A stretch of DNA of 47,264 nucleotides, from positions 1-47,264 of the forward strand of contig JAGVAH010000023.1 in the NCBI GenBank assembly GCA_020060385.1, in the 5' to 3' direction. Below the pieces are notes generated by a model. It ran no database searches and was not told where the DNA came from. It saw only the letters and a list, made by a program, of their open reading frames with translations. Origin of the DNA: Syntrophobacterales bacterium. GTDB lineage: Bacteria; Desulfobacterota; Desulfobaccia; Desulfobaccales; 0-14-0-80-60-11. This document shows, one piece after another, positions 1,795 to 25,837 of the stretch. A program made the translations under genes and the position numbers. The stretch's first letter is position 1, and each line of letters opens with the position of its first letter.

Positions 1795-2484
1795 CTATTT
1801 GAGGGGCTTGCCGATGCCCGCGGCCTCCAGGTCATGTTTAGTGACGTGGGCCCGTTTGCAGCAGTCCAGAAGTTTGCCTTCCACTACTACGGCTGGAACA
1901 GCCTCAATACCATACTGCTTTGCCTCTTCTACACCCTGCCCCTGGTTTAGACTATAAACCGTGACTTCGCAGTTCGGGCAGGCAGTGGCCTTAACCAAAT
2001 CCACCAGATCGGTGCAGACCGGGCAGCCGGCAGTGAAAACCTCGACTTTTCTTTTGGCCATTTCTTTCACCTCCTTTTTTTCAGGAATATCCGCCATCCG
2101 TTCCCAAATAGGGCACAGGGACAGGCTTCCAATCCCGGGACATGTTTCTGCAAGCTCAAGTAGAGTTGATTTCATAACCTCTAATGCAGCAAGCTTTTGA
2201 TTGATCTCGGCGACTTTGCGGCTGGCCAGGTCCCGCATCTCGGCACAGCTAATCTCGCCATGCCAGCCGAGACTGAGCAACTCGCTGATTTCCTTAAGAG
2301 AGAACCCGAGCCTTTGGGCGCCTTTTATAAAGCGGACCTGGTTGACGGCTTCGGCCGGATATCTTCGGTAACCCCCCTCGGGCTTGGGTGGCCTGGAAAG
2401 CAGCCCCCGGCGCTCATAGAAGCGGATGGTCTCGACATTAACCCCCGCAGCCCTGGCCAATGCGCCTATGGTTAATTCTTTCAT
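1795..2484 (-). CDS. merR: MerR-family Hg(II)-type regulator fused to thioredoxin-like domain
   Basis: The first ~140 residues are a MerR regulator: an N-terminal HTH (TIGALARAAGVNVETIRFYE), a dimerisation helix, and the three cysteines that bind Hg(II) in MerR, seen in ISCAEM, ETCPG and SLCPI. After a lysine/glutamate-rich linker comes an ~88-residue thioredoxin/glutaredoxin-like domain with a CPVC active-site motif, a second CPNC pair and DCCKR near the end, ending GKPLK. The ATG at 2484 has GAGG upstream. No stop separates the two parts, so they read as a 229-residue fusion, but a strong internal ribosome site at 2070-2074 could also give a free thioredoxin-like protein. Its promoter matches mer operators closely, so Hg(II) is the most likely inducer; this remains an inference from motif similarity. 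Confidence 0.85.
   Translation of the reverse strand: MKELTIGALARAAGVNVETIRFYERRGLLSRPPKPEGGYRRYPAEAVNQVRFIKGAQRLGFSLKEISELLSLGWHGEISCAEMRDLASRKVAEINQKLAALEVMKSTLLELAETCPGIGSLSLCPIWERMADIPEKKEVKEMAKRKVEVFTAGCPVCTDLVDLVKATACPNCEVTVYSLNQGQGVEEAKQYGIEAVPAVVVEGKLLDCCKRAHVTKHDLEAAGIGKPLK
2059..2074 (-). promoter_or_regulatory. internal Shine-Dalgarno and ATG inside the MerR-thioredoxin frame
   Basis: On the minus strand GGAGG (2074-2070) is followed after 8 bases by ATG (2061-2059), which starts the peptide MAKRKVEVFTAGCPVC in the same frame as MerR. The spacing is ideal, so the thioredoxin-like domain can be made both as a fusion and alone. It may instead be the relic of two formerly separate genes. 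Confidence 0.6.
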
Positions 2485-2501
2485 CGTTTTCCTCGGTTTT
2501 A

Positions 2502-2532
2502 ATTTAAGTCCCGTACCATAGTACGGAGTCAA
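2502..2532 (-). promoter_or_regulatory. mer-type promoter/operator with 19-bp spacer
   Basis: Minus-strand -35 TTGACT (2532-2527) and -10 TTAAAT (2507-2502) are separated by 19 bp containing the dyad CCGTAC-TATG-GTACGG. A long 19-bp spacer with a central dyad is the hallmark of MerR-activated promoters, and the half-sites match the classical mer operator. The promoter reads toward the merR gene itself, so MerR is autoregulated here. Confidence 0.85.
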
Positions 2533-2595
2533 GAGGGATGCCAAAAAACTTTTTGAAGACTCGGAAATTCCTCCAGAGGTATTGACAGCTAAGTT

Positions 2596-2631
2596 ATATG
2601 AGCTTATACTCATATAAAAAATGGCTCATAT
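2596..2631 (+). promoter_or_regulatory. ArsR-type operator upstream of the ArsR gene
   Basis: A perfect inverted repeat ATATGAG (2596-2602), 6-bp spacer, CTCATAT (2609-2615), followed by a third half-site CTCATAT at 2625-2631 that ends just 3 bases before the arsR ATG. AT-rich dyads of this kind are typical SmtB/ArsR operators. It probably mediates autorepression. Confidence 0.65.
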
Positions 2632-2634
2632 AAA

Positions 2635-2982
2635 ATGGATGAGAAGATACTGGATTCGCTTGCCCGGCTGTTCAAGCTGTTGAGCGATGCCAACCGGCTG
2701 CGGATTATCTTTGCCATCGGCAAAGAGAAAAAATCGGTCTCGGAGATTATTGAGGCCACCTCCCTTTCTCAAACCCTGGTCTCCTTTCACCTGAGACCCT
2801 TGAGAGAGAGCGGCCTCCTATCTACGGAACGGCGGGGGCCTTTTGTCTATTACAGCGTTTCTGATCCGGTGCTGATGGACTTACTGGTGTCCCTCTGCGG
2901 GGTCTCCCCCAAAGAAGAACTGAAAGAAGAGGTCAACTTCGTCTGCCCGCCCATGCGCTTCATGCGGAAGTGGATGAAATGA
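2635..2982 (+). CDS. ArsR/SmtB-family transcriptional repressor
   Basis: A 115-residue winged-helix regulator: LSDANRLRIIFAI is the standard ArsR first helix, TSLSQTLVSFHLRPLRESGLL the recognition helix region, and RRGPFVYYSV the wing. The usual CVC metal motif of ArsR is absent from helix 3; cysteines occur later (LCGV, NFVCPP), so a different metal site or none is possible. It is transcribed divergently from the MerR operon and begins immediately after a palindromic operator with no good ribosome site, suggesting a leaderless or near-leaderless message. The next gene, a TVP38-family membrane protein 27 bases downstream, is probably its main target along with the following metal genes. Confidence 0.85.
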   Translation: MDEKILDSLARLFKLLSDANRLRIIFAIGKEKKSVSEIIEATSLSQTLVSFHLRPLRESGLLSTERRGPFVYYSVSDPVLMDLLVSLCGVSPKEELKEEVNFVCPPMRFMRKWMK

Positions 2983-3009: not shown

Positions 3010-3717
3010 ATGCAAAATAATTCTTCCACCCCAGCAAAACCATCCCTGGTCCGGCCCCTGGTTTTTCTCCTGCTTTTGGTCGGGATCATCTTTGTGGTGC
3101 GATTTTTTCACCTGGACCAATTTTTGGAGAAAGAGCGTCTGAGAGAGACGATCGCAGCCTATGGCCTGTGGGGACCCGTAATCTATATGCTCGTCTGGCT
3201 GGCGGCCCCGCCTTTGTTTCTTCCCGGTCTGCCCATTGGCCTGGCCGGAGGCGTCCTCTTCGGGCCTTTCTGGGGTGTGGTCTATACCATTTTTGCCTCA
3301 ACCGCCGGGGCTACCCTGGCCTTCCTGGTGGCCCGCTACCTGGTCCGCGATTGGGTGGCCGCCAAACTCACCGGCACCAAGCTGGCAGCCCTGGACGAAA
3401 AGGTGGGACAGCATGGCTGGAAAATCGTGGCCTTCACCCGACTTATCCCGGTCTTTCCCTTTAATCTGCTCAACTATGCCTTCGGCCTCACCCGGATTTC
3501 CCTGCCGGCCTATGTGCTTGCCACTTTCATTTTCATGCTTCCCATGACCATCGCCATTATCTACTTCTCGGCGAACCTCCTGGACCTGCTCCAGGGAAAG
3601 GTCACCTGGGGCGTGGTCTTGGGGATTGCCCTGGTGACTCTGGTCGGCCTAATACCGGTTATTTACAAAAAGCTCAGGGCCAGAAGAGCTCTGTTAAATC
3701 TCGATGATTACCAATAA
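3010..3717 (+). CDS. TVP38/TMEM64-family membrane protein
   Basis: A 235-residue polytopic inner-membrane protein of the TVP38/TMEM64 (SNARE-associated, DedA superfamily) type. Diagnostic parts are the glycine-rich re-entrant segment LPGLPIGLAGGVLFGPFWG, the following GATLAFLVARYLVRDW, and the conserved FTRLIPVFPFNLLNYAFG. Bacterial members occur often beside mercury, selenium or arsenic genes and have been suggested to move metal or metalloid species or lipids, but no defined substrate can be assigned here. It follows the ArsR gene closely and precedes the Met-rich gene by 18 bases, so these genes look like one operon under ArsR control. Confidence 0.85.
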   Translation: MQNNSSTPAKPSLVRPLVFLLLLVGIIFVVRFFHLDQFLEKERLRETIAAYGLWGPVIYMLVWLAAPPLFLPGLPIGLAGGVLFGPFWGVVYTIFASTAGATLAFLVARYLVRDWVAAKLTGTKLAALDEKVGQHGWKIVAFTRLIPVFPFNLLNYAFGLTRISLPAYVLATFIFMLPMTIAIIYFSANLLDLLQGKVTWGVVLGIALVTLVGLIPVIYKKLRARRALLNLDDYQ

Positions 3718-3735: not shown

Positions 3736-4095
3736 ATGGAAGAGAAAGGCTGCGGCCCGGGCATGGGCATGGAGATGATGAAAAAGATGATGGAGGGCCA
3801 GGGCGGGGCCATGCTCCCCATGGTGGAAAGGTGAATGCAGATGTGCGAGCAGATGACCGGTACGGTCGTCGAGGTCGGCAGACTGGCGGGGTTCGCCTCC
3901 CCGGAATTACGGGGTTTATTTGATGAATGGCTCAAGGCCCTGGAAAGCGAGATCATTGAAGTTCTCAAAGAAAAAGGCAGTTGCCTCCCGGCTGATTTGG
4001 CTGCCCAACTCAAACTTTCGGAAGAGAGCGTCTTTTTCCTGATCGGCAAGCTGGTCAGGGAGGGCAGGCTGAAGATCACCGGGGTAACATTATAG
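3736..4095 (+). CDS. Met-rich winged-helix-like protein with in-frame UGA (candidate selenoprotein)
   Basis: The ATG at 3736 has AGCGGAGG upstream. It encodes a Met/Gly-rich N-terminus (MEEKGCGPGMGMEMM and so on), then MLPMVER, an in-frame TGA at 3832-3834, and continues in the same frame with MQMCEQM, an acidic helical stretch (SPELRGLFDEWLKALE) and a winged-helix-like C-terminus (LAAQLKLSEESVFFLIGKLVREG). Read through, it is a 119-residue protein with Sec33 and Cys37 in a U-x3-C pair inside the Met-rich region, a natural soft-metal site. A hairpin with a GGU-starting loop lies 25 bases after the UGA. The alternative is two overlapping genes, since ATG directly follows the TGA, but the second start has only a poor ribosome site and both halves form one continuous Met-rich motif. 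The Sec reading is an inference. Confidence 0.6.
3852..3870 (+). promoter_or_regulatory. SECIS-like hairpin after UGA 3832
   Basis: GAUGACC-GGUAC-GGUCGUC forms a 7-bp stem with a 5-base loop starting GGU. The loop begins 25 bases after the UGA, within the 16-37 range described for bacterial SECIS elements, which also require a G among the first loop bases. One G-U pair is present. Confidence 0.5.
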
Positions 4096-4115: not shown

Positions 4116-4391
4116 ATGGAGGTTGTTATGGGACCGGATTATTCCTGGCCCTGGTGGGGGCCGATGTGGGTCTTTCCCACCTTTATGCCCATCATCATGC
4201 TGGTGGTGATGATTGTGGCGCTCTATCTCATCTTCGGGCGAGGGGGATTTTGCGCTCCCTGGCACGGATCGACCCGGAATTTTGACCGGGACCGCTCGGA
4301 GTCGGCCCTGGATATACTCAAGAAGCGCTACGCCAGGGGCGAAATCACCGCGGAAGAGTTCGAGCGGATGAAACAGAGTATCCTCAGCTAG
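4116..4391 (+). CDS. small membrane protein with SHOCT domain
   Basis: A 91-residue protein with a Trp/Pro-rich N-terminus (YSWPWWGPMWVFP), one strong membrane helix (IIMLVVMIVALYLIFG) and a C-terminal SHOCT motif, ALDILKKRYARGEITAEEFERMKQ, which is the diagnostic short domain found at the ends of many membrane proteins. SHOCT domains are thought to mediate oligomerisation. A possible GTTATG start lies inside the sequence at MGPDY. It sits between the Met-rich candidate selenoprotein and the methyltransferase and belongs to the same operon by spacing. Similar small SHOCT proteins are frequent in copper and mercury loci, but no reaction can be assigned. Confidence 0.8.
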   Translation: MEVVMGPDYSWPWWGPMWVFPTFMPIIMLVVMIVALYLIFGRGGFCAPWHGSTRNFDRDRSESALDILKKRYARGEITAEEFERMKQSILS

Positions 4392-4401
4392 AGGTGCAAT
4401 C

Positions 4402-5952
4402 ATGGACGCCGAACTGACCCCACAAGATCAGAAGCGGATCGAAGAAAGTATCCGGGGAAAGTACGTCAAGGTCGCGGTCAGCCCGGAAGGTCTGTTCCGC
4501 TATCCCACGGGCCGGGCTGGTCTGGAGGCCCTGCATTACGACCCGCAGATCATCCCAGACCTTCCGGAGCAGGTCGCCGCGGCCTACTGCGGGGTAGGAA
4601 ATCCCTTTTCTCTGGGGCCGATCCAGCCGGGAGAAACCGTCCTGGATATCGGTTGCGGCGCCGGGGTCGATTCCCTCATCGCCGCCAGGATGGTGGGGCC
4701 GTCAGGTTCGGTCAGGGGCATCGACCTGGTTCCCGAGATGCTTAACCGGGCCAAGGAGAACGCCAGGCTGGTGGGGGCTGAGAATGTCGAGTTTACGGAA
4801 GGCTCGGCGCAGGAATTGCCTTTCCCTGATGCCAGCTTCGACGTGGTGATCTCCAACGGGGTATTTAATCTGGTGGTGGATAAGGTCAAGGCCCTGGAAG
4901 AGGTCATGCGGGTCTTGAAACCGGGCGGGCGGTTCATGATTGCCGACCAGGTATTGGCCGGAGAATTGCCCAAGGAGACCAGGGCCAGGGTCGAGAATTG
5001 GGCCAGGTGAGAGGGCGGGGCCATACCGGGAAAGGTTTTCCTGGAACTATTGCAACGTGCAGGATTTGAAGATGGTGAATTGGTGGCCGAAACCGGATTC
5101 AATAGCTCACCGGTCACCAAAGGGGTATTGGTTCGGTCCGTCAAACCCCTGGCGGCAACAGTAGGAGAGCGAAAGAAAGCGGCTGCGGGCATGGCCATGG
5201 AGGACACGATGGATTACCTGGTGAAACGGGCCTTGGAGTTGGGCGCTGAGAAAGCCAAAATCATCGACACGGAGACGGTGGTGATCGGCGAATGGGTGCG
5301 CTGGAAGTGTCTCTATGGCTGCCCCATGTATGCCAAGGACGGCTTTCACCCGCCAATCGCCCCGGATGCGGAGAGCACGAAGAAGGTGCTGGGGGAGTAT
5401 ACCAAGGCCATCCTGCTCAACGGCCCCAACGGAATGACCCTCACCGAAGCCGCGGTAAAATTGGAGGGCGAAGCCTATCACCGGGGCTATTACAAGGCGT
5501 TCGCGCTCACGGCTTTGGTGCCCAGTGGCGCGGTAGGATGTGCGCCGCCAAGCCCTGGTCCCGATCCTGCTCCCGGAGGCGGGTGACCCACCGGGAAGAC
5601 CCAGGCTCCGGCGGAGCCTGCGAAAGCAGAGGAGATCAAACCGGCAGATGTGCAACCGAGTCCCAGCCCCGGCGGCGGGTGACCGTCCGGCCAGGCGGCG
5701 GCTCCGGGCGAGCCGTCAAAGACCGAAGAGATTAAGCCAGTTCCCAGCCCTGGCGGAACCTGACCCACCGGCGCGGCAGAGGTCCAGGTAGGGCCTCAGA
5801 GTGGGGAGCTAACCAAGCTCAGGATCAGACCCATGATGGAAGCCTGCGGCATCGACGTCTTCAAAACCGCCAGGCATAACGGCTTTGACATCGACACCAG
5901 GAAAGAGACCTACGGCAGATGGAACTATTTTGCCTTAGTCCTGGTTGATTAG
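4402..5952 (+). CDS. ArsM-like methyltransferase-DUF2284 fusion with four in-frame UGA codons (candidate multi-Sec selenoprotein)
   Basis: Read with UGA as selenocysteine this is one 516-residue protein ending at TAG 5950-5952. Residues 1-250 are an ArsM-like SAM methyltransferase: motif I VLDIGCGAG at 80-88 and the VLKPGG region; the As-binding Cys of SNCVINL-type motifs is Gly153 (SNGVFNL). Sec203 (UGA 5008) sits in ENWAR-U-EGGAIPG, where ArsM and AS3MT have their substrate cysteine. Residues 264-516 are DUF2284, a predicted metal-binding family: ALELGAEKAKIIDT, Cys303, Cys307, then His316 where family members usually have Cys. The usual Cys cluster is replaced by three Pro/Gly repeats with PGG(G/T)-U-P(T/S)G at Sec395, Sec427 and Sec454 (UGA 5584, 5680, 5761), followed by the conserved RPMMEACGIDVF. 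The stops are all UGA, never UAG or UAA, and each has a SECIS-like hairpin 3' to it. The substrate may be As, Hg or Se species. A pseudogene is the alternative. Confidence 0.75.
5026..5044 (+). promoter_or_regulatory. SECIS-like hairpin after UGA 5008
   Basis: CCGGGAAA-GGU-UUUCCUGG forms an 8-bp stem (one G-U pair) with a three-base GGU loop. The first loop G is 24 bases after the UGA. This closely fits the bacterial SECIS consensus of a GGU-containing apical loop on a short stem. Confidence 0.7.
5602..5620 (+). promoter_or_regulatory. SECIS-like hairpin after UGA 5584
   Basis: CAGGCUCC-GGC-GGAGCCUG is a perfect 8-bp stem with a three-base GGC loop. The first loop G lies 24 bases after the UGA, the same offset as in the methyltransferase domain. 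Confidence 0.7.
5697..5717 (+). promoter_or_regulatory. SECIS-like hairpin after UGA 5680
   Basis: GGCGGCUC-CGGGC-GAGCCGUC forms an 8-bp stem with one G-U pair and a CGGGC loop. The first loop G is again 24 bases after the UGA. The sequence differs from the hairpin after UGA 5584 on both arms while pairing is kept. Confidence 0.65.
5779..5797 (+). promoter_or_regulatory. SECIS-like hairpin after UGA 5761
   Basis: GAGGUCC-AGGUA-GGGCCUC forms a 7-bp stem (one U-G pair) with an AGGUA loop, which resembles the AGGU loop of E. coli fdhF. The first loop G is 24 bases after the UGA. Confidence 0.7.
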
Positions 5953-25559: not shown

Positions 25560-25577
25560 GTTCACTAATTTCAGCGT

Positions 25578-25742
25578 ACAGGCGCCCTTCGGGGCTTAAA
25601 AGGGAAGCCGGTGCAAGTCCGGCATGGTCCCGCCGCTGTAACCGGGGACGAAACCTGCGTGATGCCACTGTTTGGCTGGAGCCGAATGGGAAGGCGCAGG
25701 GAGTAGGCGGATCCGGAAATCAGAAGACCTGCCTGTATGTCA
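25578..25742 (+). ncRNA. cobalamin (adenosylcobalamin-type) riboswitch
   Basis: The conserved core is clear: GCCGGTGCAAGTCCGGCATGGTCCCGCCGCTGTAACCGG (split here only as one continuous match region 25606-25644), GATGCCACTG at 25661-25670, ATGGGAAGGCG near 25686-25696, and AATCAGAAGACCTGCCTG at 25719-25736. These are the B12-box elements of the Cobalamin riboswitch family. Binding of a corrinoid is expected to favour the downstream terminator at 25838 and switch the receptor/chelatase operon off. Confidence 0.95.
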
Positions 25743-25837
25743 GCGGTTATACCCCCACGCGTGATGGGGGCTGACCCGGCCGGCGCAGGGATGGAAAACC
25801 TGCCCGGCCGCTCCTGGGGACAAAGCAAACTGGGTGC

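Follow-up and report, generated by a model that had tools for sequence, protein, structure and literature searches.

Organization of the locus

The stretch of DNA analysed, 47,264 nt long and called the window below, carries at positions 4402–5952 a methyltransferase gene whose reading frame crosses four UGA codons. The gene, its neighbours and the features within it are as follows.

1795–2613, minus strand: divergently transcribed fusion of a MerR-type regulator with a thioredoxin domain (MerR model TIGR02051, 140.9 bits, cut-off 150.85)
2635–2982, plus strand: ArsR/SmtB metalloregulator, TsoR-like (NF045707, 93.2 bits, cut-off 115)
3010–3717, plus strand: VTT-domain membrane protein
3736–4095, plus strand: TsoA-like selenoprotein of 119 aa with U33 (UGA at 3832, motif UMQMC, UxxxC)
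3852–3870, plus strand: SECIS hairpin of the TsoA-like gene (equally good scores at 0.6% of control TGAs)
4116–4391, plus strand: small membrane protein with a SHOCT domain
4402–5952, plus strand: fusion gene for a four-Sec ArsM-like methyltransferase/DUF2284 protein of 516 aa, ending in TAG
4402–5151, plus strand: ArsM-like SAM methyltransferase domain, aa 1–250 (Methyltransf_31, 4.5e-37; PDB arsenic methyltransferases, 1e-26)
5008–5010, plus strand: UGA for U203, aligned with C224 of CmArsM
5026–5044, plus strand: SECIS hairpin of U203, loop GGU at +24
5257–5508, plus strand: N-terminal part of DUF2284, with C303/C307 (PF10050 positions 1–98)
5566–5661, plus strand: Sec unit 1 (PAPGGG-U-PTG, SECIS and linker)
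5584–5586, plus strand: UGA for U395
5602–5620, plus strand: SECIS hairpin of U395, loop GGC
5662–5742, plus strand: Sec unit 2 (PSPGGG-U-PSG, SECIS and linker)
5680–5682, plus strand: UGA for U427
5698–5716, plus strand: SECIS hairpin of U427, loop CGGGC
5743–5823, plus strand: Sec unit 3 (PSPGGT-U-PTG, SECIS and linker), with the family-type downstream junction kept
5761–5763, plus strand: UGA for U454, a Cys codon (TGC) in the relative L025
5779–5797, plus strand: SECIS hairpin of U454, loop AGGUA
5818–5946, plus strand: C-terminal part of DUF2284 (RPMMEACGIDVF...; PF10050 positions 121–161)

When TGA was read as selenocysteine (Sec, U), translation of 4402–5952 gave one protein with U203, U395, U427 and U454 ahead of the TAG stop. 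The four in-frame UGAs of an earlier sequence-only reading, starting at 5008, 5584, 5680 and 5761, were re-found exactly, and its description of the gene as a four-Sec fusion of an ArsM-like methyltransferase with DUF2284 holds both on this translation and on the domain matches. DUF2284 (PF10050) scored 83.1 bits against a Pfam cut-off of 25. In the methyltransferase domain U203 is followed by EGG, forming a UxxG motif. A Cys form of DUF2284 encoded in the same genome has four Cys in its C-terminal cluster; in the window protein the cluster, which lies before RPxMEAxGIDV, is absent and Sec units are found instead. Comparison with the Cys form thus bears out the proposal that the Sec units occupy the usual site of the DUF2284 C-terminal Cys cluster.

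The sequence-only reading was correct about the four-Sec gene and missed the adjoining TsoA-like gene, so that its account of the selenoproteins of the operon was incomplete. The U33 UGA of the TsoA-like gene is kept in L025, L026, L030, L032 and L033 and is followed there by a similarly spaced hairpin; the L030 protein has the exact LULATC motif. L025 and L026 share the gene order arsR-VTT-TsoA-like-SHOCT-ArsM, and L030, L032 and L033 keep parts of it. As in the Tso (three-selenoprotein operon) system (PMC13188914), a TsoR-like regulator and a TsoA-like selenoprotein adjoin the gene. Both fall below their NCBIfam cut-offs, TsoR with 93.2 bits against 115 and TsoA, matched over the C-terminal part of the 119-residue protein, with 58 against 170, and the neighbourhood is to be called Tso-like only. 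Its genes are naturally read as an operon, related to the Tso neighbourhood, that responds to a metal or metalloid. Beside the MerR-thioredoxin gene, at 1055–1327 on the plus strand of the window, lies a small ORF for a membrane protein that is Cys-rich at its end (SSCKGCCDCLNDFR) and matches MerC very weakly (E 0.02).

Family membership and number of Sec units

The window protein scored 715.8 bits, against a cut-off of 575, with the NCBIfam model NF041536, 'arsenite methyltransferase/DUF2284 domain selenoprotein' (ArsM_DUF2284_UU). The family is described here from its HMM and from a 2026 review, which lists it with two Sec and credits Haft and Tolstoy 2025 (PMC13188914). Having four Sec where two are listed, the window protein is a variant of NF041536 and not a standard member. 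The domain order, the Sec at 203 and the C-terminal PGxxUPSG unit are common to both; the window protein differs in its four Sec, in the triplication of the unit together with its SECIS, and in the loss of the Cys after the unit. The family being already named, the only new part is the tandem triplication of the C-terminal Sec unit.

Two further NCBIfam families resemble parts of the protein. The DUF2284-Sec half matches NF045648, the MbdU metal-binding double selenoprotein, with 288.6 bits, below the cut-off of 600. With NF047649, the methyltransferase/UXPK-star double selenoprotein, the window protein scored 338.9 bits (cut-off 460); the likeness lies in a methyltransferase that has U at position 203 and in a PGGAU motif at the C-terminal end, whereas NF047649 proteins have a short Sec tail ending in UEPK and are without DUF2284. 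Another gene of the same genome, L002 (G000:C157:378-1148), encodes an ArsM-like protein with U203 and a C-terminal PGGAUEPK, and is probably an NF047649 double selenoprotein.

To count units, the segment before RPxMEAxGIDV was scanned in the fetched loci. Three Sec-type units were found only in the window gene, L026 and L025, the last with Cys in unit 3, and a single Sec unit in L027–L035, L037 and L104. L030, one of the single-unit genes, belongs to the cultured species Desulfosarcina widdelii. The triplicated genes are therefore three, in two genomes of one genus, and the relatives read outside the genus have one unit. L025 and L026 are two paralogues in WY4.bin79; the same two genes are present in G257, of the window's genus. 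The NF041536 cut-off was passed in only two of 395 genomes of the phylum, and the fusion was absent from the other genera of the order. Among 389 genomes from the order of Desulfosarcina, the complete fusions recovered were the known one-unit genes and one more one-unit copy, L104.

A SECIS hairpin follows each UGA

In the published model, a bacterial SECIS has a loop of 3–9 nt with a G within the first two positions, 16–37 nt from the UGA (PMC13188914). All four UGAs of the gene are followed by hairpins that fit this model. Folding and a best-stem search placed after each UGA a hairpin of 7–9 bp whose loop has a G at +24; the 3-nt loops begin at +24 and the 5-nt loops at +23. The 48-nt stretches after the four UGAs have minimum free energies of -12.2 to -18.7 kcal/mol. 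When the 1364 other TGA trinucleotides in the window were used as controls, equally good hairpins followed only 0.2–1.0% of them, per site. These chances are not independent and are not to be multiplied, because the three C-terminal sites are mutual copies; conservation is for that reason the stronger test.

Hairpins of the C-terminal units were compared across ten loci (15 hairpins, 14 of them distinct). In this set 93.9% of cells pair, and all seven base pairs show double-sided changes, in 18 cells. The covariation score was 0.647, as against 0.277 ± 0.043 for shuffled data, and none of 500 shuffles reached the observed value. Sliding the partner by 1–3 bases lowered pairing to 20–51%, a shift of a single base being enough to cut it by about half. 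The U203 hairpin is well conserved in nine loci, with 62 of 63 counted cells paired, and shows little covariation. The earlier claim of a SECIS-like hairpin at a fixed distance after each UGA is thus upheld by hairpin position, by the TGA controls and, at the C-terminal units, by covariation. A search of Rfam gave no match to a SECIS family; its only match was a cobalamin riboswitch (RF00174, 109 bits) at window positions 25563–25750, plus strand. Locus L032 has a weak SECIS after its remaining UGA and Gly (GGA) at position 203. This locus, the same gene as L100, is possibly a decaying copy; a second copy in its genome, L105, has UGA at 203.

Coding constraint and the capacity to decode UGA

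When the window gene was compared with L026 and L025, the differences still clustered at third codon positions on both sides of each UGA, and this bias extends to the 62 codons after U454. The two short inter-unit segments, of 26–27 codons each and also bearing hairpins, show it least. The DUF2284 end RPMMEACGIDVF, which the sequence-only reading had recognised past the last UGA, is conserved in all complete relatives.

Cys had been expected at the Sec sites of homologs, and other sense codons there had been held to argue against Sec. Among 90 loci, some of which are one place represented twice, the codon at position 203 was TGA in 79, Cys in nine and GGA in two, both GGA rows being one gene (L032/L100). 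Position 203 is accordingly only UGA, Cys or, in that one gene, Gly. Cys is also found in the third C-terminal unit of L025 (L025:4309-4389), which reads PGGTCPT, with TGC replacing TGA. The hairpin of this unit is still strong, and its loop is GCC, unlike the GG/GU loops of the Sec sites. A Sec-to-Cys change that freed the SECIS would look like this single case.

The genome has the equipment for Sec insertion. SelA (597.3 bits), SelB (363.8 bits), SelD (377.4 bits) and tRNA-Sec (score 78.3) are all present, which answers the question of selA, selB, selC and selD raised by the sequence-only reading, and the SelD gene has an in-frame UGA of its own. Identically scoring tRNA-Sec genes lie at the ends of contigs G000:C30 and G000:C134 (L017 and L018); the two copies probably represent a single gene at which the assembly broke. 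TGA is the stop codon of 10 of the 28 main genes of the window and is still a normal stop there. SelB with tRNA-Sec would decode all four UGAs of the fusion gene, and four decodings in series should lower the yield of protein. At the level of sequence comparison, the observation of a four-UGA selenoprotein gene is confirmed as real and beyond chance.

Origin of the additional Sec units

In an alignment of the units at the DNA level, each copy, 75–96 nt long, consists of glycine codons, the UGA, the hairpin and a charged linker. The hairpin, together with its 3′ flank, encodes the linker between Secs, APxEPxKxEEIKP. Since the SECIS of a bacterial gene is part of the coding sequence and directly follows the UGA, copying such a cassette yields a further decodable Sec at once. 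The four selenocysteines would have arisen by tandem triplication of the C-terminal cassette, a UGA with its own SECIS. Unit 3 has retained the family-type downstream junction and hairpin type, and unit 1 of L025 reads GATUPSGET, as in the single-unit genes. Between L025 and L026, units 1 and 2 are about 12% different and the rest of the genes about 24–26%; between the window gene and L026 the relation is reversed, with units 1 and 2 about 21% different and the rest 13–15%. This pattern of divergence suggests gene conversion between the L025 and L026 paralogues in the Sec region. Tandem Repeats Finder reported no array for the Sec units, as they are too divergent, and it is the unit alignment that reveals the copies.

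Animal selenoprotein P likewise has many Sec per protein; its SECIS lies in the 3′UTR and serves all of its UGAs. Those UGAs number ten (PMC5491492). Unlike selenoprotein P, the window gene has an in-frame SECIS for each UGA, so that copying the cassette copies the signal. According to the 2026 review, prokaryotic selenoproteins mostly have one Sec, a few families have two to three, and multiple Sec are mentioned for some archaeal FrhD/VhuD (PMC13188914). The window gene provides a bacterial family member with four Sec, and its close relatives represent other states (one unit, or three units with Cys in the third). It illustrates how simply Sec-rich proteins can arise in the bacterial layout, where UGA and SECIS travel together.

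The methyltransferase core and the arsenic ligands

The closest PDB relatives of the methyltransferase half are arsenic methyltransferases. Both CmArsM (4FR0, 4KW7) and the window protein are SAM methyltransferases by sequence, and U203 aligns with C224. CmArsM has C72 and C174 and has neither Sec nor DUF2284, whereas the window protein is without equivalents of these two Cys: in the alignment to CmArsM, Gly153 stands at the place of C174 and Val65 at that of C72. All 59 non-identical Sec-type sequences have Gly at the C174 position and Val or Ile at the C72 position. Cys63, two residues from Val65, is present in 57 of the 59. Among six sequences that are not of the Sec type, Cys stands at the C174 position in five and at 203 in five.

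In previous work with CmArsM, the C174A and C224A changes abolished both methylation steps, and C72A abolished the first (PMC3877260). Given the loss of the C72 and C174 equivalents, arsenite methylation by the Sec-type proteins is unproven and doubtful, and they cannot bind arsenite in the manner of CmArsM unless other ligands help. The proposal that Sec203 takes the place of the ArsM substrate cysteine therefore stands for C224; it fails for C174, which is Gly, and for C72, which is Val or Ile. Since the sampled Sec-type proteins are without two of the three arsenic ligands, the name 'arsenite methyltransferase' given to them in annotation is possibly misleading.

A possible role for the Sec arm

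The sequence-only reading had proposed a metal(loid) methyltransferase, probably acting in As, Hg or Se chemistry. A soft-metal or metalloid reading is still favoured, and its arsenite part is weakened by the lost ligands. In the AlphaFold model pLDDT is below 50 across residues 362–482, predicted from a shallow alignment of nine sequences with the repeats in only three, and this arm is accordingly predicted to be disordered and flexible. From the replacement of the Cys cluster by Sec units, the missing ligands and the predicted disorder, we infer a flexible Sec-bearing arm. The favoured interpretation is that the protein is a soft-metal or metalloid methyltransferase whose disordered Sec arm would capture the ion and supply the missing ligands. 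In such a scheme the methyltransferase core, with Sec203 as the C224 equivalent and the shifted Cys63, would methylate or bind a soft metal or metalloid ion. The flexible arm, in place of the DUF2284 Cys cluster, would capture the ion, supply the missing selenolate or thiolate ligands and pass the ion to Sec203, and triplication of the units may raise capture capacity or affinity. The TsoR-like ArsR regulator and the divergent MerR-like regulator would control a detoxification operon. Candidate substrates are As(III), methylarsenite and Hg(II).

We think it probable that the gene is a member of NF041536 with a triplicated UGA-plus-SECIS cassette and an arm that captures a soft ion. The more particular proposal, that tandem self-contained Sec cassettes form a poly-selenolate soft-metal trap that completes a methyltransferase site without the classical arsenic ligands, is a possibility that is put forward tentatively. 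If true, it would represent a new way of evolving Sec-rich proteins and might also reveal a new chemistry of metal or metalloid methylation.

Alternative explanations

All four Sec might be made and the tandem arm might serve as a redox element, a reductant or resolving partner for Sec203, rather than as a metal ligand. Sec/Cys pairs act as reductants or resolving partners in other selenoenzymes, and the single-unit ArsM fusions have a Cys about nine residues past the Sec (UPSGETEAQC; L027–L032, L037 and L104), a possible selenenylsulfide pair. The predicted flexibility of the arm and the thioredoxin domain fused to the neighbouring MerR would also suit such a role. However, the Cys after the Sec has been lost in all triple-unit members, and also in L033, L034 and L035; the flanking regulators are of the metal type, and the arm occupies the place of a predicted metal-binding Cys cluster. 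We regard a redox arm as somewhat unlikely.

The possibility of a plain CmArsM-like arsenite methyltransferase, with catalysis improved by Sec and with the additional Secs as neutral copies, was also considered. The nearest structures being arsenic methyltransferases would fit, as would the review's selenoprotein table, where a Sec arsenite methyltransferase stands above the rows marked as predicted (PMC13188914). Yet C72 and C174 are missing from 59 of 59 Sec-type sequences, and CmArsM C174A is inactive in both steps (PMC3877260). Neutrality of the copies is further at odds with unit 3 of L025, where the Sec has changed to Cys and to no other residue. This explanation we judge unlikely.

Far less probable is decoding of UGA203 alone, perhaps with UGA395, the later UGAs being stops, or DUF2284 being a separate gene from about 5191. 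There are in-frame ATGs at about 5191–5209, and some DUF2284-Sec domains are not preceded by an ArsM match (L033 and L034). Against these points, the covariation set includes the hairpins of units 2 and 3, the conserved DUF2284 end after UGA454 is still under coding constraint, and the remaining complete loci also have the fusion. The assembly behind the window is a draft, but an assembly artefact, a pseudogene or a reassigned UGA code is scarcely credible when two paralogues in another genome of the genus show the same architecture, when coding constraint persists past the UGAs, and when TGA serves window genes as a normal stop and the genome has a complete Sec system. UGA reassignment, a pseudogene and the two-gene arrangement were rejected on the grounds of coding constraint, downstream homology, SECIS covariation and the use of TGA as a stop.
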